64,000 bases of DNA from a virus. Below the pieces are notes generated by a model. That model did no database searches. It was not told where the DNA came from and saw only the letters and a list, made by a program, of their open reading frames with translations. Both the position numbers and the translations under genes were made by a program. Every line of letters starts with the position of its first letter. Within the stretch, counting starts at the first letter, position 1. Shown here one piece after another: positions 27,140-53,835 of the stretch. Location: the IMG/VR virus record IMGVR_UViG_3300002835_000094, positions 24,987-88,986 of that record; one strand, 5' to 3'.

Positions 27140-28075
27140 ATGAAGGTTTTAATTACAGGCGGCGCCGGCTATTTGGGCTCTACTATGGCCGAATACTTTT
27201 TACAGCAACAGTATGAAGTTACGGTTTTGGACAACTTAATGTACAAGCAACTTAGCTTGTTGCATCTATTCAAGCATGAAAAATTTAAGTTTGTTCAAGG
27301 TGATGTGCGTAATACCGAATTGCTAAAAGAACTGGTTACTACACATGATATAGTGATTCCGTTAGCAGCGATTGTTGGCATGCCTGCATGCAAATCCAAT
27401 CCAGAGCTTACGGTTGATGTTAATTATAAACAAATCAAAAACATCGTGGATTGGTTAAGTAACGATCAGAAATTGATAATACCCAATACAAACAGTCAAT
27501 ATGGATCTAGCGATTCAATTATTACTGAAGATAGCCCATTCAAGCCGTTAAGTCTATATGCGCAGACAAAGTGCGATGCTGAACAATATGTGCTAGATAA
27601 AAGTAATGGTATTGTATTGCGTTTGGCTACCGTATTTGGTGTTAGCCCTCGTATGAGACAGGATTTATTGGTCAATGACTTTGTTTATAAATCAGTCACA
27701 GATGGTTACCTAGTATTGTTTGAGGCAAACTTCAAAAGAAATTATATACATGTGCAAGACATAGCTCAAACATTTTTGTTCATGGTATCCAATTATAATA
27801 TTTGCAACCATAATGTATATAATGTTGGGTTGTCTGATGCTAACTTAAGCAAGTTAGAATTAGCAAATAAGATAAAAGAACATGTCCCGTCTTTGGTAAT
27901 CAAGCAGGATGAGTTCAAAGAAGATTTTGATAAGAGAAATTATATTGTTAGTAATCAAAAACTAGAAAGTTTGGGTTGGAGACCAAGTTTTAGTTTAGAT
28001 TATGGAATCCAACAATTAATTAGTGCATATCAAATGACGATAAATCACAATAATAGAAACTTTACAAACTTATGA
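27140..28075 (+). CDS. SDR-family UDP-glucose-4-epimerase-like protein, 311 aa
   Basis: Canonical extended SDR: VLITGGAGYLGS near the start, IPLAAIVGMP, NTNSQYGSSD, and the catalytic pair in YAQTKCDAEQ (YxxxK). The C-terminal NYIHVQDIAQTFLFM fits nucleotide-sugar epimerases and 4,6-dehydratases. A late-type box sits so that the transcript would begin at its ATG. It is the third consecutive SDR gene, so the cluster probably builds one or more unusual sugars. Confidence 0.85.
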   Translation: MKVLITGGAGYLGSTMAEYFLQQQYEVTVLDNLMYKQLSLLHLFKHEKFKFVQGDVRNTELLKELVTTHDIVIPLAAIVGMPACKSNPELTVDVNYKQIKNIVDWLSNDQKLIIPNTNSQYGSSDSIITEDSPFKPLSLYAQTKCDAEQYVLDKSNGIVLRLATVFGVSPRMRQDLLVNDFVYKSVTDGYLVLFEANFKRNYIHVQDIAQTFLFMVSNYNICNHNVYNVGLSDANLSKLELANKIKEHVPSLVIKQDEFKEDFDKRNYIVSNQKLESLGWRPSFSLDYGIQQLISAYQMTINHNNRNFTNL

Positions 28076-33415: not shown

Positions 33416-36400
33416 ATGCTGAGAGATGTATTTTATTACGGTAAAAAACCAAACGTCCATCCTAGAGAAAAGTTTGCTAAAGATTTAGCAGATGCTAGAA
33501 ACCAATCTACTACAGAACATTTTTGGATAATCAACGAGTTTAGTGATTATCGCAATTTTGATTGGGATTTTGATTTTGATTTTCTACCTGACGAAGATGT
33601 GTGGGCAGAAGATCATATCAATGTTTGGCCCAGCCAGCATCAGAAAGATAGCGGGACTTGGTTAGTTAATACAGACAATCAAAATCCCTGTATCATTTAT
33701 AGAAATGATGTTGATTGTGTTAAAAGAACAAAATTAAAATCTGATAACTGGGTAATTCCATATCCTATAGATGAAAAGTTGTTTGATTTTAGCTGGCATC
33801 CTGATACAACTGATCCTCCTTTTATCTATCAGTTTAGTTCTCAGTGGCGCAAAACAGGTGGACCTAGATATATTGTACCCGGCGCAACCGTTATTAAATT
33901 TGTGGACACGCAATTAGCAACAGCAGTCCCTGATTGGGATAATTGGGTGATTCATAAACCAATAGATGAGAAACTGTTTGACTTTACTTGGATGCCAGAC
34001 GAGCATGAACCTCCTTATATCTATGTATGGGGTAACAAATGGGTTTCCGGGGCGATATCTCCTACAGTAGAGTACCGTGCACCCGGTGCGACAGAAAAAA
34101 AATATATGTCAGACACGGTTAGATTGATTCCCAAATATGACAAGTGGGTAATCAATGATCCAATAAATCTAGATTTATTTGACTTTAGTTGGATACCTGA
34201 TCCAACGAGTCCTGCATACATTTATGTATGGGGTAATAAGTGGGTTCCCGCTGAACTTCATTCAACCATTGAATATCATGTAGATGGTGCAATAGATAAA
34301 AAATACATGAATGATCCTGCCCCGGTCTTGCCCCAAACTGAGTTATGGAAAATATACAGTGAAGTTAAAAATTTTGACTTTACTTGGAGGCCTGATCCAA
34401 GAGAACCAGCATATATCTATACTTGGGGGAATAAGTTTGTATCTGCTGAAATATCACCAACTCTAGAATACCACACTCCTGGCGCTACTGAACGAAAGTA
34501 CATGGGAGATGTTGAGGTTGTGCCTGAATATAATAAATGGATCGTATATCAAAAGAACACCTTTGATTTGACATGGCGACCTGACCCAAGAGAACCTGCT
34601 TATGTTTATGTCTGGGGTAATAAATATATACCTGGAGAAATAAAACCAACCCTAGAATATCACACCCCCGGGGCTACTGAACGAAAGTACATGGGAGATG
34701 TTGAGGTTCTCCCGGAAACAGACAAATGGAAAATACATCATTTAGTAACTAATTTTGATCTAGCCTGGAGACCAGATCCTCGTGAACCCGCTTATGTCTA
34801 TGTTTGGGGTAACAAATATATACCCGGGGAAATACAGCCTACAATAGAATATTATGTAGAAGGTGCTACAGAAAGAAAGTACATGGGAGATGTTGATGTT
34901 GTCCCGGAACTTGAAAAATGGATAATGCACATTCCAGTTGATAAAACACAGTTTGACATGGCATGGCGCCCCGATCCAAGAGAACCAGCATATATCTATA
35001 CTTGGGGGAATAAGTATGTTTCTGCTGAATTAAAACCTACGCTTGAATATGTTGTGCCCGGTGCGACAGATAGAAAATACATGGGAGAGGTTCCAGTATT
35101 ACCAAATTGGGACAACTATAAAATACATGCATCCATACAAAATTTTGATTTTACTTGGATACCAGATCCAAGAGAACCTGCTTACATTTACACATGGGGT
35201 AATAAGCACGTGCCGGCTGAGGTTCACCCAACACTTGAATATTATGTAGATGGAGCAACTGAACGCAAGTATATGGGCAATGTTGAAGTATTACCCGAGC
35301 TAGATAAGTGGGAAATACATCAACAAATTGACAAAGAAAAATTTGACTTTAGTTGGAGACCCAATCCTACTAGTCCCCCGTATATTTACGTATGGGGTAA
35401 CAAATATATACCGGGAGAATTACGACCTACTGTTGAATATCACACCCCCGGTGCAACTGAATACAAATATATGGGAAATGTTGAAGTATTGCCCGAACAT
35501 GACCGTTGGGTTGAACATCAGCAAATAGATAAATCTAAATTTGATTTTGCTTGGAGACCAGATCCAAGAGAGCCTGCGTATATTTACACATGGGGAAATA
35601 AATGGATCAAGGCTGAATTGAAACCTACTTTAGAATATAAAGCGCCAAATGCCACTGAAAGAAAGTATATGGGTGATATTGAAGTGTTACCTGAACTGTC
35701 TAAGTGGAAAGAAATTCAACCAATTGATAAAGCAAAATTTGATTTAAGTTGGAGACCAGATCCAAGAGAACCTGCATATATCTATGTCTGGGGCAACAAG
35801 TGGATAAGACCTGAACTTAAATCCACATTAGAATATCACATGGAAGGGGCTACTGAGTACAAATATATTCAAGAACCTGTTGATATATTGCCCGAATATG
35901 ATAGATGGAAGGAAGTACAAAAGGTAACAAACTTTGACTTTACTTGGCGGCCAGACCCAAGAGAGCCAGCATACATCTATGTGTGGGGTAACAAGTGGAT
36001 ACCCGGTGAACTAAAATCTACAATTGAATATCATTGTGATGGCGCCACAGAAATTAAGTACATGGGCAATACTGACGTTCTACCCGAATATGATAGATAT
36101 AATATTCTTATACCTATAGACAAAGATAGTTTTGATTTCACATGGAGACCTGACCCAAGAGAACCAGCATATATCTATGTATGGGGTAATCAAAGTAACA
36201 ATGCTGAAACAGAACCAACTATTGAATATCACTGTGAAGGGGCATCTGAACGCAAATACATGAATGACAGATTTGCGAAAACATTGCCCGACATGGATAA
36301 TTGGAGTGTGTTGATTCCAGTAGAAGATTTTGATTTTAGTTGGAGACCCGAACCCGGCAGTCCTCCTTATATCTATGTGTTTGGCAATCAATGGCACGAT

Positions 36401-39073
36401 GCTATGACTGAGCCTACGGTACTGTACACAGTTCATGGGGCCACTGACAAAAAGTATATTACTAACATAATTGCTAAAGTTAGTAAAACACAACAGTATT
36501 GGAAAACATTAATAGACATAGAAAGTTTTGATTATAGCTGGAGACCTAATCCACATAGTCCTCCTTATATCTATGTGTTTGGTAATCAATGGAATGATGC
36601 ACTTCAAGAACCAACTGTTGAGTATCATTGTCCCGGAGCTACAGAATACACATACATTGATAACATCAAAGCATTAGTAAAATCTACTGCGACAGAAAAT
36701 CATTGGAAAAAATTACTACCAATTGAAAGTTTTGATTTTAGTTGGAGACCTGATCCCAAGTCACCTCCCTACATATATGTGTTTGGTAATAAATGGAATG
36801 ATGCATCTACTGAACCCACTGTTGAATATCATGTAGAGGGAGCAACAGATAAAAAATATATGTTAGAACCGGTAGCTGTTCCTGCTGCACAACTAAATTT
36901 GTGGAGCGTTAACAATACTGATGATTTAGAAACATTTGATTTTACATGGAGACCTAATCCTCATAGTCCGCCTCAAATATATCAGTGGGCTAACAATGGC
37001 CCTAGATACACAGTGCCTGGTGCTACGGAAGTTGTATTGATGGAACGTTCTAATGAAAGTAAAAAGACAACAGTAAACAAATATTATATTACGACTACAT
37101 TAGAAGATTTGATTAATCAACATCCTGAAGAAGTATTTTGGGCACTAAACCCTGATTTAAACTATGATAAGTTTGATTTTAGTTGGAGGCCAACTGAACA
37201 AAACTTTAGACACATAAATGTGTTCGGTAATGAATATAGTAAGAACACACAAACCTACTACATCAATGCTCCGTTGTATTTGTTGGGCTATAAAGAATAT
37301 AACTATGTTGAAGAACATCAAGTTCAAACAGATACTAATTTGAGTATGTTTTTTATTGATAAAGGTAACCTAGAAAGTAATATTCGTTTCAATAAACTTA
37401 AAGAGTTATATCCCAAGCTTCAAAAAACAAGATTCTTCAACAACTGGGTTGAAACAATCGCAAGATGCATTCGCAAAACAGAAACAAAATTATTTTGGGT
37501 ATTGAATAGCGAATTAGATTATTCTGATTTTACTTTTGATTTTTATCCAAGTCCATGGCAAATCAAAATGATTCATGTGTTTGGTACTCAATGGAATCAT
37601 TGGGGAAATACTTATGTCATTAATTCAGAAACCTTTTTAGAAGATACCAAGTATGTTAAAGTTATTGAGCACCTCAATACTATAAACTTAGTAAAAAGTA
37701 AAAGAGCAAAGGCTACTGATTGTCTATATGATGTATATTTGATAGATCACGGAAACTACGAATCGGTTGATATCATATACGACATTACAGAAAAAATTGG
37801 GAATAGAAAATTACATACTATTGATTTTGTAGACACCTATCATAAAACATTTGAAAAGATTCTTAATCTGTTAGAAGATAAAAAGGATCAGTTTATTTGG
37901 GTATGTAATTCAATATGTCATTACGATAAATTTGATTTCAGTTATATTTGCGATCCCTTTGCGCAGGAACAATTGCATGTGTTTCCTAGTGACAGACAAA
38001 AATATGGTGATACCTTTTTAGTAAATGTTGAATTATTGCGCAAGTTCATAAATGACATTTCTTCATTAGAAAATTATCCAAGTATCAATTTCAATGAGCA
38101 TCAATCAGTCACTAGAATCAATCCGCCTGAATTTATTACTAGTGACAGTCATGTTGGATCTATAGATAAAAACTTTAAGTTCCCTTATGCAGTTTTTAAA
38201 ACTAACGACCATAGAAATATTAATATCAAGGATGAGAAACCTATTAGTTTATGGTCTGAAAGTTCTAAAACTATTCTAGTAACTACTACAGGTGGAACAA
38301 GAATAATAGTTCCTAAAGATGCTATAAAATATGTAAAAGAAGAATTATATGATTATCCCTATATTAAAAAATCTTACAAGCCATTACAAAGCAATCCGTT
38401 AGACATTGTATTTTTAAGCAATGGTGAAAGTAACGCAGAAGAAAACTACGAACATCTATTAAAAGTAACCAAAGGTAAAAAGAACAAAGTTGTCCGCGTT
38501 GATGGGGTAAATGGAAGAGTAAATGCGTACCATGCCGCAGCAAATGTAAGCACTACGCCGTGGTTCTTTACGGTATTTGCTAAGTTAAAAGTAGACGACA
38601 ATTTTGATTGGAACTGGCAACCTGACAGGCTTCAAAAGTCAAAGCATTATATTTTTCACGCTACTAATCCTGTGAACGGGTTAGTATATGGTCACCAAGC
38701 TATGATTGCCTATAACAAGATAATGACATTGAATAACACCGGTAAAGGATTAGACTTTACACTTGATGACAACCATGAAGTAGTAGAAATCAATTCGGGA
38801 ACTGCAATGTTCAATACAGACCCATATAGCACTTGGAGAACTGCATTCAGAGAAGTAATTAAACTGTGTAATGATGAGCAAGACTATATGAGTCAAACAC
38901 GTTTGCATACTTGGTTAGCAAAGGCTGAGGGTGACTTTAGTGAGTATGCATTAATGGGTGCAAATGATGCTTATGAGTATTATGAAAACAATAAAGACGA
39001 TTTTGCCAAATTGAAATTAACATACGAATGGGAATGGTTAAATCAGTACTTTACAAATAAATACAAGTCATGA
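33416..39073 (+). CDS. 1,885-aa tandem-repeat protein with C-terminal glycosyltransferase-like domain
   Basis: From about residue 123 to 1,200 it consists of about 17 well-conserved modules of some 65 residues, with the core FDFTWRPDPREPAYIYVWGN and then EYHxxGATExKYM. Three or four diverged modules follow (FDFSWRPTEQNFRHINVFGN; FDFYPSPWQIKMIHVFG; FDFSYICDPF), and one precedes them. Residues from about 1,660 match the protein encoded at 15717-16676 (RVDGVNGRVNAYHAAANVS; STWRTAFREVIKLCND). DNA copies differ mostly at silent positions, so the repeats are old and kept by selection. No signal peptide. It may be a scaffold or glycan-binding enzyme; a virion role cannot be excluded. Confidence 0.8.
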   Translation: MLRDVFYYGKKPNVHPREKFAKDLADARNQSTTEHFWIINEFSDYRNFDWDFDFDFLPDEDVWAEDHINVWPSQHQKDSGTWLVNTDNQNPCIIYRNDVDCVKRTKLKSDNWVIPYPIDEKLFDFSWHPDTTDPPFIYQFSSQWRKTGGPRYIVPGATVIKFVDTQLATAVPDWDNWVIHKPIDEKLFDFTWMPDEHEPPYIYVWGNKWVSGAISPTVEYRAPGATEKKYMSDTVRLIPKYDKWVINDPINLDLFDFSWIPDPTSPAYIYVWGNKWVPAELHSTIEYHVDGAIDKKYMNDPAPVLPQTELWKIYSEVKNFDFTWRPDPREPAYIYTWGNKFVSAEISPTLEYHTPGATERKYMGDVEVVPEYNKWIVYQKNTFDLTWRPDPREPAYVYVWGNKYIPGEIKPTLEYHTPGATERKYMGDVEVLPETDKWKIHHLVTNFDLAWRPDPREPAYVYVWGNKYIPGEIQPTIEYYVEGATERKYMGDVDVVPELEKWIMHIPVDKTQFDMAWRPDPREPAYIYTWGNKYVSAELKPTLEYVVPGATDRKYMGEVPVLPNWDNYKIHASIQNFDFTWIPDPREPAYIYTWGNKHVPAEVHPTLEYYVDGATERKYMGNVEVLPELDKWEIHQQIDKEKFDFSWRPNPTSPPYIYVWGNKYIPGELRPTVEYHTPGATEYKYMGNVEVLPEHDRWVEHQQIDKSKFDFAWRPDPREPAYIYTWGNKWIKAELKPTLEYKAPNATERKYMGDIEVLPELSKWKEIQPIDKAKFDLSWRPDPREPAYIYVWGNKWIRPELKSTLEYHMEGATEYKYIQEPVDILPEYDRWKEVQKVTNFDFTWRPDPREPAYIYVWGNKWIPGELKSTIEYHCDGATEIKYMGNTDVLPEYDRYNILIPIDKDSFDFTWRPDPREPAYIYVWGNQSNNAETEPTIEYHCEGASERKYMNDRFAKTLPDMDNWSVLIPVEDFDFSWRPEPGSPPYIYVFGNQWHDAMTEPTVLYTVHGATDKKYITNIIAKVSKTQQYWKTLIDIESFDYSWRPNPHSPPYIYVFGNQWNDALQEPTVEYHCPGATEYTYIDNIKALVKSTATENHWKKLLPIESFDFSWRPDPKSPPYIYVFGNKWNDASTEPTVEYHVEGATDKKYMLEPVAVPAAQLNLWSVNNTDDLETFDFTWRPNPHSPPQIYQWANNGPRYTVPGATEVVLMERSNESKKTTVNKYYITTTLEDLINQHPEEVFWALNPDLNYDKFDFSWRPTEQNFRHINVFGNEYSKNTQTYYINAPLYLLGYKEYNYVEEHQVQTDTNLSMFFIDKGNLESNIRFNKLKELYPKLQKTRFFNNWVETIARCIRKTETKLFWVLNSELDYSDFTFDFYPSPWQIKMIHVFGTQWNHWGNTYVINSETFLEDTKYVKVIEHLNTINLVKSKRAKATDCLYDVYLIDHGNYESVDIIYDITEKIGNRKLHTIDFVDTYHKTFEKILNLLEDKKDQFIWVCNSICHYDKFDFSYICDPFAQEQLHVFPSDRQKYGDTFLVNVELLRKFINDISSLENYPSINFNEHQSVTRINPPEFITSDSHVGSIDKNFKFPYAVFKTNDHRNINIKDEKPISLWSESSKTILVTTTGGTRIIVPKDAIKYVKEELYDYPYIKKSYKPLQSNPLDIVFLSNGESNAEENYEHLLKVTKGKKNKVVRVDGVNGRVNAYHAAANVSTTPWFFTVFAKLKVDDNFDWNWQPDRLQKSKHYIFHATNPVNGLVYGHQAMIAYNKIMTLNNTGKGLDFTLDDNHEVVEINSGTAMFNTDPYSTWRTAFREVIKLCNDEQDYMSQTRLHTWLAKAEGDFSEYALMGANDAYEYYENNKDDFAKLKLTYEWEWLNQYFTNKYKS
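39056..39064 (+). promoter_or_regulatory. Late promoter box in front of the tmRNA
   Basis: AATAAATAC lies inside the last codons of the repeat-protein gene. Predicted +1 is about 39069, just before the stop codon, so a transcript would cover both tmRNA pieces and end at the terminator near 39427. Confidence 0.5.
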
Positions 39074-42413: not shown

Positions 42414-43325
42414 ATGAAGAAAATTATAATGGCAACTTTATTGATGGGGCTAGTTTCAGTTGCTAGTGCTCAGGTAACAATAAACGGAAAAGTCAGCGCA
42501 TTTGTTGATAACTCTAAAGTTGGTAATGGTTCTACCAGTACTCAACTTGTTACTGAACCAACCAGCAACTTTGCACTATCAGTTAAAGAAAAAATGGGCC
42601 GTGATTTGTTTGCCCGAGCCACTGTAGAAACATCATTGAAGGGTAACACCTTTGGAGGTGATGATACTAGAGTTGGTGATCGTCAAGCAACAGTCGGTCT
42701 TGCCAATAAGTTTGGTAGTGTTGACTTAGGTCGCAATGTACACAGCCACTTCTTAGCAATCACTAAAAATGATGTTTTCGGAACATTGTATGGTAGTGTT
42801 GCAGGTGATGTACACAATCTACGCGGATTGCGTTTAGCAGATGCTGTATATGCTACAATGGTTCCTGTTAAGGGTTCTGTAGTTGCGTATGAGCGTACAC
42901 TAAATGGTCCTGGCGCAGACGCTGAAGTTTTTGCCGGCTCAACTAAAATCGCAAGATTACATGTTGATGTTGCACGTTTCCAACAAGGAACAGAAAAGAG
43001 CACAGTATTCGGTGCTCAAACTAAATTGATGGGAACTACAGTAGCGTATGTATACAGCGACAACGAAGGTCTAGTAACTAGCAAAGGTCAAACGCTTGGT
43101 GTAGCACGTGATATGGGTCATATCACTGCAAAGGCAAGTTATGGCCGTACAAATACAGACACAACTGCTTACAATGTTGGTGCTGATTACAATTTAAGCA
43201 AGCGTACTGCTTTGCATGTTGTATATCGCAATGTTGATAGAAGTGCTGTAAGTTGTTTAGCTATTGGCTGTCCTGCAGCCAATGGTACTAGTGGATTTGG
43301 TGTTGGTGTAACACACAAGTTTTAA
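42414..43325 (+). CDS. Outer-membrane porin, 303 aa
   Basis: A signal peptide (MKKIIMATLLMGLVSVASA, cut before Gln) is followed by QVTINGKVSAFVDNS, the usual first strand of Gram-negative general porins, alternating beta strands throughout, and a C-terminal GVGVTHKF ending in Phe, the BAM assembly signal. It resembles trimeric porins of betaproteobacteria and is close to their usual length (330-380, slightly short). In a phage it would change the permeability of the host outer membrane. Its own late promoter, leader hairpin and terminator, and the next gene pstS, suggest a role in nutrient, perhaps phosphate, entry. Two Cys near the C-terminus (SCLAIGCP) could form a loop disulfide. Confidence 0.88.
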   Translation: MKKIIMATLLMGLVSVASAQVTINGKVSAFVDNSKVGNGSTSTQLVTEPTSNFALSVKEKMGRDLFARATVETSLKGNTFGGDDTRVGDRQATVGLANKFGSVDLGRNVHSHFLAITKNDVFGTLYGSVAGDVHNLRGLRLADAVYATMVPVKGSVVAYERTLNGPGADAEVFAGSTKIARLHVDVARFQQGTEKSTVFGAQTKLMGTTVAYVYSDNEGLVTSKGQTLGVARDMGHITAKASYGRTNTDTTAYNVGADYNLSKRTALHVVYRNVDRSAVSCLAIGCPAANGTSGFGVGVTHKF

Positions 43326-43344: not shown

Positions 43345-43369
43345 CAAAAGGGGCCATTGGCCCCTTTTG
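43345..43369 (+). terminator. Hairpin terminator after porin
   Basis: CAAAAGGGGCC and GGCCCCTTTTG form an 11-pair stem with loop ATT. The T run is short (four). Its last bases overlap the first Pho half-site. Confidence 0.75.
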
Positions 43370-43405
43370 TCATAAACTGTCACAATTTTGTCATAATTTC
43401 TTAAC
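43367..43405 (+). promoter_or_regulatory. Pho box (PhoB half-sites) upstream of pstS
   Basis: Direct repeats TTGTCAT (43367-43373), CTGTCAC (43377-43383) and TTGTCAT (43388-43394), plus a weak TCTTAAC (43399-43405), spaced 10, 11 and 11 bases with AT-rich gaps. These match the PhoB CTGTCAT half-site. The next TAAATA (43416-43421) lies ten bases after the last unit, where the -10 of a PhoB-activated promoter belongs. Confidence 0.8.
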
Positions 43406-43413
43406 ACTTTTTT

Positions 43414-43422
43414 TGTAAATAC
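43414..43422 (+). promoter_or_regulatory. Late box / extended -10 of the pstS promoter
   Basis: TGTAAATAC can be read as a T4-type late box (+1 about 43427) or as an extended sigma70 -10 (TGTAAATA) served by the Pho box. AAGGAG (43438-43443) precedes the ATG at 43450. Confidence 0.6.
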
Positions 43423-43449
43423 AGTTGTTCAACACACAAGGAGACAAGT

Positions 43450-44439
43450 ATGAACAAAATAATTGCTATGGTATTAGCAGCCGTATCATTCACGGCACAC
43501 GCACAGACAATTAATGGAGCCGGGGCAACATTCCCGGCTCCGCTTTATGCTAAGTGGGCAGATGCCTATAATAAAGAAACTGGTATTAGATTAAATTATC
43601 AAAGTGTAGGATCAGGTGCAGGCATAAGACAAATTGAAGCCAAGACAGTAGCGTTCGGTGCAAGTGATATGCCATTAAAAGACGACAAATTATCTAGCAT
43701 GGGTGCAACACAGTTCCCTACAGTAATTGGTGGAGTAGTACCTGTCATTAATCTGAAAGAAGTCAAGCCTGGCGAAATGAAACTCACCGGACAAGTAATT
43801 GCAGATATCTATTTAGGTAAGATTAAAAAGTGGGATGATCCTGCTATTGCAAACCTTAATCCATCATTAAAACTACCCAATCAAGATATTGCTGTAGTTC
43901 GTCGTGCAGATGGTAGCGGCACGACATTCTTATGGACAAACTATCTAAGCAAAGTTAATAGCGAATTTAAAGAAACAATTGGAGAAGGTACTGCTGTTAA
44001 CTGGAAAGTTGGTGTAGGTGGCAAGGGTAATGAGGGCGTTAGTGCTATGGTTCGTCAACTACCCGGTGCACTAGGTTATGTTGAGTATGCTTATGTCAAA
44101 CAAACTAAAATGAATTGGGTGCAGATGCAGAATAAAGATGGTCAGTGGGTAGCTCCTGATGATTTAACATTCAAGGCTGCGGCAGCAAATGCTACATGGG
44201 AAAAAACATTTTTCCAAGTATTAACTGATCAACCTGGCAGGACTGCATGGCCTGTTACAGGTGCCACATTCATCATCATGTATCTAAAGAATGACAAACC
44301 ACAAGAAGCACAAGAAGCATTAAAATTCTTTAGATGGGCTTTTGCTAAGGGCGATAAGATGGCAGAAGAACTTGATTATGTTCCTCTACCAGACAGTGTT
44401 GTAGCGTTAGTAGAAAAAGAAATAAGTAAAATTAAATAA
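43450..44439 (+). CDS. pstS: Phosphate-binding protein PstS, 329 aa
   Basis: Periplasmic phosphate-binding component of the PstSCAB transporter. A signal peptide (MNKIIAMVLAAVSFTAHA) is followed by TINGAGATFPAPLYAKWADA, the PstS opening block. SVGSGAGIRQIEAKTVAFGA and RRADGSGTTFLWTNYLS carry the Ser, Arg, Asp and Thr residues that bind phosphate, and GVGGKGNEGVSA follows. Length fits. No pstC, A or B is visible, so it would feed the host transporter. The Pho box upstream means host PhoB can switch it on; the overlapping late box may allow expression without phosphate stress. A strong terminator follows. Confidence 0.97.
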   Translation: MNKIIAMVLAAVSFTAHAQTINGAGATFPAPLYAKWADAYNKETGIRLNYQSVGSGAGIRQIEAKTVAFGASDMPLKDDKLSSMGATQFPTVIGGVVPVINLKEVKPGEMKLTGQVIADIYLGKIKKWDDPAIANLNPSLKLPNQDIAVVRRADGSGTTFLWTNYLSKVNSEFKETIGEGTAVNWKVGVGGKGNEGVSAMVRQLPGALGYVEYAYVKQTKMNWVQMQNKDGQWVAPDDLTFKAAAANATWEKTFFQVLTDQPGRTAWPVTGATFIIMYLKNDKPQEAQEALKFFRWAFAKGDKMAEELDYVPLPDSVVALVEKEISKIK

Positions 44440-44482
44440 ACCGACCACAAGATAAGGTGGTGCTGGATATCCGTAACCAGCA

Positions 44483-44503
44483 GGCCCGAAAGGGCCTTTT
44501 TTT
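44483..44503 (+). terminator. Rho-independent terminator after pstS
   Basis: GGCCC GAAA GGGCC followed by seven T residues. A GCTGG/CCAGC hairpin lies just before it. Confidence 0.88.
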
Positions 44504-44528
44504 ATAATAGGTTTGTAATTAATAACAC

Positions 44529-44537
44529 GATAAATAT
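44529..44537 (+). promoter_or_regulatory. T4-like late promoter box
   Basis: GATAAATAT, predicted +1 exactly at the A of the ATG at 44542. No ribosome site is possible upstream, so the mRNA would be leaderless. Confidence 0.65.
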
Positions 44538-44541
44538 TCGT

Positions 44542-45390
44542 ATGACACCAAAGACTTATCGCGCCATTTTTGTCAGTGATGTTCATTTAGGCACTAGAGA
44601 TAGTAAAGCCGAACAACTAAATAATTTTCTCAAGCACAACACTTGTGAAACATTGTACTTAGTGGGTGATATTTTGGATGTTTGGCGTATACAGCAAAAC
44701 AAATGGCGCTGGAAGCAAAGCCATACTAATGTTGTCAGACGAATATTAGGTCATGCTAAACGTGGTACTCGCGTGATTTATGTGGCAGGCAATCATGATG
44801 AATTTTTACGACCACTCATGCCTTATAATATCGGCTTTGGTAATGTTGAAGTAACCAACCAAACTGAACACATAGGTGTAGATGGCAAACATTATCTTGT
44901 AATACACGGAGATTTATTTGATGGAATTACTAGATTAGCGCCGTGGTTAGCATTTTTAGGTGACAAAGCATACGATGTGGTATTATGGTTAAACAACAAG
45001 TTCAATTGGTGGCGTCATAAATTTGGATTTGGTTATTGGAGTTTGAGTCAATATTTGAAACAGCGAGTGAAAAAGGCTGTTGACTTTATATTTCAGTTTG
45101 AAAAAAATTTAGTTGCTTATTGTAAGAAGCGTGGTTTTGATGGTGTGATCTGTGGGCACATTCATCATGCTGAAATAAAAGAAATTGATGGCATTGTTTA
45201 TATGAATGATGGCGACTGGGTAGAATCTATGACTGCATTGGTTGAACACCACGATGGCCACTGGGAAATCGTAATTTGGACTAAGGAGAGTGACAATGTG
45301 GTTACTAATTTTGATAGCAGTACACATAAACAATCCCGCCGACGTGCCGGGCAAAGCAGTGATAAAATTTCAGACACAGACGGAGTGTGA
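44542..45390 (+). CDS. plcP: PlcP-type metallophosphoesterase (LpxH-like superfamily), 282 aa
   Basis: Calcineurin-like phosphoesterase with metal ligands SDVHLG (Asp13, His15), VGDILD (Asp43), GNHDE (83-87), VIHGD and CGHIHH (204-209). Automatic annotation would call it UDP-2,3-diacylglucosamine hydrolase. However, the pattern FVSDVHLGT, WRWKQSHTNVVR, GTRVIYVAGNHDEFLR, WLAFLGDKAYD and DGDWVESMTALVEH is that of the PlcP phospholipase C group, which removes phosphorylated headgroups to give diacylglycerol under phosphate starvation. A GT4 transferase follows, as in bacterial plcP-agt operons, and pstS precedes. No signal peptide. The last ~33 residues overlap the next gene and look unconserved. 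Confidence 0.82.
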   Translation: MTPKTYRAIFVSDVHLGTRDSKAEQLNNFLKHNTCETLYLVGDILDVWRIQQNKWRWKQSHTNVVRRILGHAKRGTRVIYVAGNHDEFLRPLMPYNIGFGNVEVTNQTEHIGVDGKHYLVIHGDLFDGITRLAPWLAFLGDKAYDVVLWLNNKFNWWRHKFGFGYWSLSQYLKQRVKKAVDFIFQFEKNLVAYCKKRGFDGVICGHIHHAEIKEIDGIVYMNDGDWVESMTALVEHHDGHWEIVIWTKESDNVVTNFDSSTHKQSRRRAGQSSDKISDTDGV

Positions 45391-45508: not shown

Positions 45509-45587
45509 TCAAGCTCGGGAAAAAAAGACTTGGTTAAAACTTTTAAAGAAAAGTCTACATCATAAACATACAGAATCTATAAAGTGA
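45456..45587 (+). CDS. 43-residue basic protein
   Basis: Preceded by a strong AAGGAGG at 45444-45450, six bases before ATG 45456. The product is Lys/His-rich (KKHYKACVQHNQAREKK; LKKSLHHKHTESIK), with one Cys and a net positive charge. Its TGA overlaps the GTG start of the glycosyltransferase gene, so it may mainly couple translation to it. Function unknown. Confidence 0.6.
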   Translation: MKVRKLIKKHYKACVQHNQAREKKTWLKLLKKSLHHKHTESIK

Positions 45588-46582
45588 AAACTATACTGAT
45601 TATAACTGATAATTTACCAAATCAAATAAATGGTGTCGTTACAACCTACAAAAATATTGAGGCTATGGCGCTTCACGACAATTATCGTGTTGTTTTTATT
45701 GATCCCGGGAGGTTCCGCTATATTGGTTGCCCTGGCTACAACGAAGTCAAGATTGCCTTTCCCAGGAAGATCGGCCAGGCGATTGAGAAGATATCTCCGG
45801 ATCATATCCATATCGCCACCGAAGGTCCTGTGGGTTTGTGTGCTAGACAATATCTTGACAAACACGGTTATCGCTACAATACTGCTTATCATACTAAGTT
45901 TCCAGAAGGAATTAGAAAGTTATTTGGAATACCTGAAAGTATTACTTGGCCTTTAGTTAGATGGTTTCACAAACATTCAGGTAAAGTATTGACCACCACT
46001 GACAGTATGGTGAATGAACTGCGTGAGCATGGATTTGATGGAGAAATTGTTAGCTGGACTAGAGGCGTTGATAGAAAGGTTTTTAATTCTTCTCAAAGAA
46101 ATAGAAATGACGATGTTAAATTGTTGGTCTGTGTAAGCCGAGTTAGTAAAGAAAAAAATCTAGAAGATTTCTTTAAATTAGAATATCCTAACAGTTATAA
46201 AATAATGGTAGGGGATGGACCAATGTTGGAAACATATAAGAAGAAATACCCCGATATACAATTTGTAGGTTTTAAAACAGGTCATGAATTGGCATATTAC
46301 TATGCTAATGCTGATGTATTTGTTTTTCCAAGTCAATGGGAAACATTTGGTATTGTTATGATAGAAGCAATGGCATGCGGTACACCGGTGGCAGCATATA
46401 GATGTCAGGGACCAATGGATGTAATTGACGAGGGTATCACTGGCTATATGGAACAAGAGTTATCTATTGCAATCCAGCGTTGTTTGCATTTGGATAGGCA
46501 GATAGTTTTAAATGGAAGTCAACGATGGAGTTGGCAACAGGCTTGGGAAATATTTAAAAACAACTTAGTCCCTATCAAGTAA
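45584..46582 (+). CDS. GT4 glycosyltransferase, Agt-like (diacylglycerol glycosylation proposed), 332 aa
   Basis: GT-B fold family-4 enzyme. Its N-terminal DNLPNQINGVVTTYKN, HIATEGPVGLCAR and AYHTKFPEGIR are the blocks of the group found beside plcP, and ETFGIVMIE (Glu253 and Glu261) is the EX7E catalytic/donor motif. In alphaproteobacteria such Agt enzymes put a sugar on diacylglycerol to make glycolipids that replace phospholipids when phosphate is scarce. Start is GTG 45584, overlapping the TGA of the preceding mini-gene. The lipid acceptor is inferred from context; a mannosyl- or LPS-type transferase is the alternative. Confidence 0.8.
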   Translation: MKTILIITDNLPNQINGVVTTYKNIEAMALHDNYRVVFIDPGRFRYIGCPGYNEVKIAFPRKIGQAIEKISPDHIHIATEGPVGLCARQYLDKHGYRYNTAYHTKFPEGIRKLFGIPESITWPLVRWFHKHSGKVLTTTDSMVNELREHGFDGEIVSWTRGVDRKVFNSSQRNRNDDVKLLVCVSRVSKEKNLEDFFKLEYPNSYKIMVGDGPMLETYKKKYPDIQFVGFKTGHELAYYYANADVFVFPSQWETFGIVMIEAMACGTPVAAYRCQGPMDVIDEGITGYMEQELSIAIQRCLHLDRQIVLNGSQRWSWQQAWEIFKNNLVPIK

Positions 46583-46620: not shown

Positions 46621-47007
46621 ATGGTATTAGTGAACGGCACCTTTGATATTATACACTCTGGGCATTTGGCACTATTAAATTACGCTAAGTCTTTGACTGA
46701 TAATTTGGTCGTAGCGATTGATTCTGATCGTAGAGTTAAAGAATTAAAAGGATCATCAAGACCTATCAATTCACAAGACGAACGCAAATTACTGCTAGAA
46801 AATCTCAAAGCTGTTGACAAAGTTGTAATATTTGATTCGGACCAAGAATTGATAGCATTGGTAGAACAATGTGATATTATGGTAAAGGGTAGTGACTATA
46901 TCGGAAAACCCATTGTCGGTGAATATTTTTGTAGGGAAATTATTTTCTTTGATAGATTAGATGGATACTCAACAACAGAAAAAATTCACAGTATTATTAA
47001 TCGGTGA
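46621..47007 (+). CDS. HldE C-terminal-type nucleotidyltransferase, 128 aa
   Basis: VLVNGTFDIIHSGHLALL contains the HxGH motif of the cytidylyltransferase superfamily. SRPINSQDERKLLLENLKAVDKVV and DGYSTTEKIHSI follow, as in the ADP-forming domain of HldE (RfaE domain II). It would join heptose-1-phosphate and ATP to ADP-heptose, the donor for LPS inner core. The kinase domain that is normally fused in front is encoded as the next gene, so the bifunctional enzyme is split and its order reversed. Confidence 0.85.
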   Translation: MVLVNGTFDIIHSGHLALLNYAKSLTDNLVVAIDSDRRVKELKGSSRPINSQDERKLLLENLKAVDKVVIFDSDQELIALVEQCDIMVKGSDYIGKPIVGEYFCREIIFFDRLDGYSTTEKIHSIINR

Positions 47008-47713
47008 CAGTTGTATTGATGAGTACCACTTTGGTACTGTTGATAGAATTAGTCCTGAAGCACCTGTGCCTGTTTTCAAACTGACTAAAAAAATATCTAA
47101 GCCGGGCATGGCAGCAAATGTAAAAGAAAACTTATTGATGCTAGGATTAGATGTTTGCTTTGTGACCAAAGGTAATTCAACTAAGATAAGATTAATTGAC
47201 GCTAAAAGCAAGCAGCATATCGTTAGAGTTGACGATGATATAAAGTCTGATCCACTAACTATAAATGAAATTTCAATAGACTTACACAACATTGATGCCG
47301 TTGTCGTTAGTGATTACAACAAAGGATTAGTAACTTATGATTTGGTAAAATCTATCAGGAAGAAATATTTAGGTCCTATTTTTATAGATACCAAAAAACA
47401 TGACCTCAAAGAGTTTGAAGGTTGTGTTGTAAAGATAAACGAAACAGAATTTTCAAAAGCAAACAGCACAACCAGTTCACTTATAGTGACACAAGGAAAC
47501 AAAGGTTGTACATATAACGGTGTGCAGTTTCCTGCCCGTGAAACTGAAGTAGTAGATGTTACTGGGTGCGGAGATACTTTTTTGGCTGCGTTAGTGTTTA
47601 TGTTTTTAGAAACCAATGATATAGTTAAAGCAATTGAGTTTGCCAATAAAGCTGCAAGTGTAACAGTTCAACATTTGGGCGTGTATGCACCCAAATTAGA
47701 GGAAATAAAATGA
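46961..47713 (+). CDS. HldE N-terminal-type sugar kinase (PfkB family), 250 aa
   Basis: DRISPEAPVPVFKL and KPGMAANVKENLLML correspond to the RfaE kinase blocks (PGGAANV has become PGMAANV), and DVTGCGDTFLAALVF holds the catalytic Asp and anion hole of PfkB kinases. It is about 60 residues shorter than the HldE kinase domain; the loss falls in the middle. Expected reaction: phosphorylation of heptose-7-phosphate. It overlaps the nucleotidyltransferase gene by 47 bases and the cupin gene by four. Confidence 0.82.
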   Translation: MDTQQQKKFTVLLIGDSCIDEYHFGTVDRISPEAPVPVFKLTKKISKPGMAANVKENLLMLGLDVCFVTKGNSTKIRLIDAKSKQHIVRVDDDIKSDPLTINEISIDLHNIDAVVVSDYNKGLVTYDLVKSIRKKYLGPIFIDTKKHDLKEFEGCVVKINETEFSKANSTTSSLIVTQGNKGCTYNGVQFPARETEVVDVTGCGDTFLAALVFMFLETNDIVKAIEFANKAASVTVQHLGVYAPKLEEIK

Positions 47714-53826: not shown

Positions 53827-53835
53827 TGTAAATAC
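53827..53835 (+). promoter_or_regulatory. T4-like late promoter box
   Basis: TGTAAATAC, identical to the pstS box but without Pho half-sites. Predicted +1 about 53840; AAGGAG (53843-53848) then serves the ATG at 53857. Confidence 0.6.

Follow-up and report, generated by a model that had tools for sequence, protein, structure and literature searches.

Phages are known to borrow the PhoB regulator of their hosts, and T4-like phages use a late sigma factor. PhoB contacts domain 4 of sigma70, a domain which the late sigma factor gp55 does not have. In host PhoB-dependent pstS promoters (E. coli, Burkholderiales) tandem half-sites are repeated every 11 bp, the last unit ends some 22-23 bp before the start, and the -10 hexamer is TA(G/C)AGT or TANNNT. 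PhoB activation is held to require strict spacing (PMC10294691). T4 late promoters carry TATAAATA, numbered -13 to -6 (PMC1524935), depend on gp55, gp33 and gp45 and have no known upstream element; the place of sigma domain 4 is filled by gp33, and the clamp adjoins the polymerase on its upstream side (PMC2988020). Variants at -12 are on record, such as CTAAATA in Aeh1 (PMC1524935). The jumbo phage CBB has gp55 and the late motif ATAAATA, while gp33 and gp45 were not detected in it (PMC5259590).

Two further groups of phages are relevant. In cyanophages P-SSM2 and S-PM2d pstS is a phage phosphate gene reported to be under the host PhoBR two-component system (cited in PMC10976474), and work on S-PM2d has shown predicted Pho boxes to be unreliable without binding assays (PMC10976474). 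In RB49 and S-PM2 early and late promoters overlap, so that one gene has both a host-type and a late promoter, but that paper describes no case in which one box is shared and stands at a fixed distance from a host activator site (PMC2984593). Phosphorus-starved bacteria possess the plcP-agt lipid-remodelling cluster, often with a Pho box (PMC4796936).

The locus described here lies in a 64,000-nucleotide stretch (the window; G000:C1:24987-88986) of the 88,986-bp virus record IMGVR_UViG_3300002835_000094, which belongs to a jumbo-type phage, a giant phage infecting freshwater bacteria. The phage encodes a permuted tmRNA of betaproteobacterial type (Rfam beta_tmRNA, RF01850, 138 bits), and its closest bacterial PstS proteins come from Burkholderiales, which makes a betaproteobacterium the probable host.

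The composite promoter ahead of pstS shares with host Pho promoters the 11-bp tandem half-sites, the downstream gene and the position of the last-unit end, whereas its -10 is the late box TAAATA. With T4 late promoters and the ATAAATA motif of CBB and GAP32 it shares the TAAATA core, a gp55-family sigma and the location of such boxes ahead of structural genes. It differs from the T4 late promoters in having PhoB sites fixed upstream: the conserved upstream element at the pstS and plcP late boxes is the PhoB units. Cyanophage pstS was rejected as the same system. Cyanobacterial Pho boxes differ, and in 13 cyanophage records pstS is mostly close behind another gene, with no tandem TGTMAY/TAAATA composite beside it.

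The composite promoter in the window

The first-pass annotation had described three PhoB half-sites and a weak fourth at 10-11 bp spacing, followed by TAAATA exactly ten bases past the last unit. Both are read directly from the letters (Table 1). The units, spread over 43367-43405, start 10, 11 and 11 bp apart, as fits a Pho box of 7-bp half-sites repeated every 11 bp, and the 10-bp spacer ACTTTTTTTG separates half-site 4 from TAAATA; in relatives this distance is 10 or 11 bp. Compared to three-unit relatives, in which TAAATA stands 10 bp past unit 3, the window promoter has one additional 11-bp turn. A sigma70-type -10 (TANNNT) is absent at the window Pho site, the hexamer there being TAAATA. 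Scoring with a PhoB weight matrix, proposed earlier as a check, was done with a half-site matrix derived from 77 bacterial pstS promoters. The three-unit site reaches 29.5 bits, the best value in all 88,986 bp; the next independent site scores 14.0, and the best site per simulated genome averages 14.7 (sd 2.9, maximum 22.3, n=60). The downstream gene had been rightly named: its product scores above the curated equivalog cut-offs of NCBIfam PRK10918 (437.7 bits, cut-off 339) and TIGR00975 (400.7, cut-off 205). The suggested overlap of half-site 1 with the porin terminator amounts to only two bases (TT, 43367-43368), the A/T extension of the hairpin, which is classed as terminator-like on the minus strand only.

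TAAATA is contained in TGTAAATAC (43414-43422), which thus holds the core of a T4-type late box (TATAAATA or NATAAATA) with G at -12 in place of the usual A. The word occurs exactly twice in the window, its twin lacking Pho sites as had been noticed before. The view of it as a late-type box agrees with the upstream regions: TAAATA is the core of the top de novo word in 33 such regions (CGATAAATAC), TAAATAC occurs in them 9 times where dinucleotide shuffles give 0.68, and TAAATA is found 15 times on the coding strand and 3 times on the other. The phage also encodes a gp55-family late sigma. TAAATA boxes sit ahead of several structural genes, also without Pho sites. Enrichment is confined to upstream regions; over the whole window, TGTAAATAC with one mismatch is found 41 times versus 35 expected. 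By T4 late numbering (PMC1524935) the pstS transcription start (+1) is predicted at 43427. The full T4 consensus TATAAATA is strongly avoided, occurring once in the window (39472) versus 10.7 expected from shuffles.

Table 1. Features of the locus and related genes (window positions unless a record position is given).
Feature	Position	Strand	Basis or remark
gp55-family late sigma, 300 aa, left arm of the record	G000:C1:3494-4396 (L002:3494-4396)	-	phrog_12791, E 2.6e-73
tmRNA, tag ANDEVFALAA	39038-39449		overlaps end of 1885-aa ORF
Porin gene (Porin_4), upstream of pstS	42414..43325	+	Pfam PF13609, E 2.7e-22
Terminator-like hairpin AAAAGGGGCC-ATT-GGCCCCTTTT, porin/pstS intergenic	43346..43368	.	
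PhoB half-site 1, TTGTCAT	43367..43373	+	sequence and matrix
PhoB half-site 2, CTGTCAC	43377..43383	+	sequence and matrix
PhoB half-site 3, TTGTCAT	43388..43394	+	sequence and matrix
Weak half-site 4, TCTTAAC	43399..43405	+	
TAAATA late-promoter core	43416..43421	+	10 bp after half-site 4
Shine-Dalgarno AAGGAG of pstS	43438..43443	+	
pstS, phosphate-binding protein	43450..44439	+	curated profile scores
Terminator 3' of pstS	44482..44497	+	
Degenerate PhoB-like unit TTATAAT, second composite	44502..44508	+	
PhoB-like unit TTGTAAT	44513..44519	+	11 bp downstream of TTATAAT
TAAATA late box, second composite	44531..44536	+	11 bp past last unit, 5 nt before ATG 44542
PlcP-type metallophosphoesterase	44542..45390	+	profile searches and homologue loci
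Agt-like GT4 glycosyltransferase, next gene after plcP	45584..46582	+	profile searches and homologue loci
Second TGTAAATAC, late box without Pho sites, ahead of ORF 53857	53827..53835	+	

Two other loci of the window can be mentioned. The 1885-aa protein encoded at 33416-39073 contains many near-repeats of about 75-90 aa each (WRPDPREPAYIYVWGNKW...). At 46621-47713 HldE-like functions are split, with the heptose-phosphate adenylyltransferase and kinase domains encoded as two genes.

Viral and bacterial promoters compared

About 70 distinct upstream regions of viral pstS genes were obtained from two viral-contig searches. Tandem strict half-sites are present in 43 distinct promoters, and TAAATA is in phase with the 11-bp repeat in 42 of them; the sequences are phylogenetically related, so these counts overstate independence. 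The offset of TAAATA from the last strict half-site is 11 (29 promoters), 10 (5), 21 (5) or 0 (3), where 21 corresponds to one degenerate extra unit, as in the window, and 0 to an extra unit-like match. None of the six TAAATA positions varies within the offset-10 or the offset-11 group, whereas most spacer positions do in the larger of the two. The control hexamers TATAAT, TAAAAT and TAATAA were never found in the phase position among the 43 promoters. One contig (L017, 62% GC) was omitted from the strict count, having a host-type TAAGAT -10 and being possibly bacterial or prophage DNA. The pstS of Campylobacter phage A11a (L122, MG065691), an unverified record with an E. coli-type pstS and promoter upstream, was rejected as a phage relative and is probably contaminating bacterial DNA.

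Of 79 pstS promoters from Burkholderiales, none has TAAATA 10 bp past the last unit (0/79); the hexamer at this place resembles TA(G/C)AGT (T 65, A 66, final T 68). A Pho pair followed at 10/11 bp by TANNNT occurs in 70 of 185 genomes of the class and one followed by TAAATA in a single genome; most of the sampled hosts are higher in G+C than the phage, and the class sample contains AT-rich sites with TAAAAT or TAATAT. The TAAATA pattern matched 100 stretches of the viral collection, versus 19 for the permuted TAATAA. Among 81 viral composite sites that were read, 30 are located ahead of pstS, 16 ahead of a metallophosphoesterase homologous to that at 44542 and 4 ahead of a 215-aa protein, and certain contigs hold two composites. 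The 215-aa protein (L271, L304, L343) is alanine/valine-rich and begins with MRLEDLA. Viral contigs L277, L292, L302, L309, L316 and L324 share a conserved TGTCACATGTCTGTAACATTACTGTTATAAATACATATA ahead of an ORF of about 30 codons.

Chance co-occurrence of Pho sites and TAAATA is excluded by the matrix score, the phase counts and the viral/bacterial contrast, and an unchanged host-acquired promoter by the lack of TAAATA in the bacterial promoters. The predicted PhoB sites and the late box are coupled, and this architecture, as judged from the promoter sequences, is general across dozens of related phages. Beyond what the first-pass annotation had seen, the design is widespread, is repeated at a second gene of the window (44542) and is tied to one type of gp55.

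The gp55 of this phage is of the long form, as in the jumbo phages PA5oct, Paride, GAP32, CBB, RaK2 and Atu_ph07. After its NYLNN start and ahead of the sigma-2 core it has about 150 additional residues, which PA5oct/RaK2-type jumbo phages share. All 13 records with the composite, pstS and a detected gp55 have the long form (285-327 aa), and the composite is found in none of the five pstS records with a short T4-type gp55, a contrast confounded by phage lineage, several near-duplicate records and possible incompleteness. Several short-gp55 records or their close relatives have TAAATA about 104 bp upstream of pstS, away from Pho-like units. The T4-type clamp gene (phrog_223) is clear in all three short-gp55 records tested. 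In contrast to the T4 late system, nine long-gp55 records, possibly incomplete, gave no or very weak clamp matches, and no gp45 clamp match was found in the window's own partial record.

The phosphoesterase gene and predicted leaderless starts

The second composite of the window (44502-44536) is weak and degenerate, and composite sites vary in strength. From homology and context we infer that the gene at 44542 codes for a PlcP-type phosphoesterase; LpxH was rejected as its identity, scoring far below the curated cut-offs. Of 30 bacterial loci with a homologue of the phosphoesterase, about half have an Agt-like gene directly behind it. The gene order, phosphoesterase and then Agt-like glycosyltransferase, is the same as in bacterial plcP-agt operons, often preceded by a Pho box (PMC4796936), but the phage pair is virus-encoded and stands under a late box. 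A limited literature search found no paper on phage plcP. Together, pstS, plcP and agt suggest phosphate uptake plus phosphate release from membrane lipids, that is, a putative phosphorus-sparing lipid module.

A search by the phosphoesterase protein, which is independent of the promoter pattern, matched at least 599 viral stretches. Among the matches listed there are 62 distinct phosphoesterase upstream regions, and most of those with a Pho pair have TAAATA at offset 11 or 21/22. The gap between TAAATA and ATG in the listed matches is 5 nt in 36 of 54 cases and 4-8 nt in 53 of 54, and none of these upstream regions has a Shine-Dalgarno sequence. In long-gp55 phages this distance is bimodal: 5 nt without a Shine-Dalgarno or about 17-24 nt, mostly with one. 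The window has TAAATA 5 nt before an ATG lacking a Shine-Dalgarno at 27140, 44542 and 58437, which are predicted to give leaderless late mRNAs. As the 5-nt gap makes the ATG +1 in T4 late numbering, a leaderless plcP mRNA is expected, and the constancy of the gap lends independent support to TAAATA as the element setting the start site.

Candidate mechanisms at the shared box

At the level of sequence, the comparison demonstrates that both elements are present, that they are locked in phase across dozens of phages, that the design precedes two phosphate-related genes and that it co-occurs with the long gp55. To explain this we propose, with belief and doubt about equally balanced, that host-type tandem PhoB sites in helical register with a T4-type late box serve sigma70 and PhoB early and gp55 afterwards. 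TAAATA (-11 to -6) would be read by the phage's own gp55-family sigma. In a phosphate-starved cell PhoB~P would recruit polymerase to the composite for early pstS expression, probably as the sigma70 holoenzyme of the host, for which these bases would be a poor -10; later, the gp55 holoenzyme would use this box and an unchanged start site, with or without phosphate starvation. PhoB would thereby add a phosphate-dependent layer onto a late phage promoter. Such a temporal split is a plausible one of three fitting mechanisms.

Use by gp55 only predicts no fixed PhoB phase, and use by sigma70 only predicts no invariant TAAATA, which points to either shared use or direct action of PhoB on gp55. The last PhoB unit ends at -23 with offset 11 and at -22 in the window; host Pho promoters have 10 bp and then the hexamer at -12 to -7, so the -23 end matches theirs. 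The base before TAAATA in offset-11 pstS composites is T in 17 of 29 and A in none, whereas A precedes 33 of 49 ordinary late boxes. T at -12 produces TTAAAT, nearer to a sigma70 -10, and hints at selection by sigma70 too; shared use is slightly favoured on account of this avoidance of A and preference for T. The earlier proposal of one -10 read by sigma70 with PhoB early and by a late sigma afterwards thus retains the Pho box, the late box, their register and the sigma gene, but use of TAAATA by sigma70 is conjectural; its last base is A, where 68 of 79 hosts have T. With an approximate sigma70 matrix TAAATA scores about 0.4 bits versus about 5 for the host TAGAGT/TACAGT. It is weak as a sigma70 -10 because of A at -7 in the window register and T at -11 in the offset-11 register.

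Alternatively, PhoB~P may directly activate the gp55 polymerase, replacing the sliding clamp, so that the promoter would be purely late and phosphate-boosted. We consider this possible but rather unlikely. It would explain why the invariant element is the late box rather than a sigma70 hexamer, yet is phase-locked to PhoB sites, and why the composites accompany the long gp55 and never the short one; the long-gp55 records also lack a clear clamp, as does CBB (PMC5259590). If no clamp is present, PhoB would have free access to the DNA on the upstream side of the polymerase, and, given the T4 arrangement of gp33 and clamp, PhoB and the clamp should be mutually exclusive. The lack of a clear clamp fits either reading, and the long/short contrast follows lineage. 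Furthermore, gp55 has no domain 4 for PhoB to contact, the -12 bias hints at sigma70, and the extra region of long gp55 was modelled with low confidence (mean pLDDT 60.7) and gave nothing significant in a fold search (best match T4 gp55, E 0.47). Equally tentative is the wider version, that in clamp-less jumbo phages host PhoB directly activates the gp55-type late holoenzyme and governs a phage-borne Pho regulon of pstS, plcP-agt and further genes.

An ordinary PhoB/sigma70 promoter, with TAAATA as an AT-rich -10 unused by gp55, is improbable: the window TAAATA does occupy the host -10 register (10-bp gap) and the -10 of host Pho promoters may vary somewhat, but TAAATA is invariant in phages against none of the 79 hosts, the more sigma70-like TATAAT and TAAAAT never take its place, and the same box precedes virion genes without Pho sites. 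Least probable is PhoB~P acting as a brake, either by obstructing the late polymerase in starved cells or by delaying pstS/plcP. PhoB both activates and represses (PMC10294691), and when bound next to the polymerase it could shut out factors that sit upstream of the late box, but repression needs no conserved activation-type geometry (last-unit end at -22/-23) and starvation should induce, not repress, a phosphate transporter.

Overall, what appears to be new is the fixed fusion of predicted PhoB sites with a late box in many environmental phages and ahead of two phosphorus genes. The design suggests that the late programme of these phages is coupled to the phosphate-starvation signal of the host. 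If true, the late phase of viral gene expression would itself respond to nutrient stress, which raises the question of whether gp55-type polymerase is open to activation by a response regulator of the host. The plcP-agt pair suggests that phages may swap phospholipids for glycolipids, freeing phosphate for DNA.
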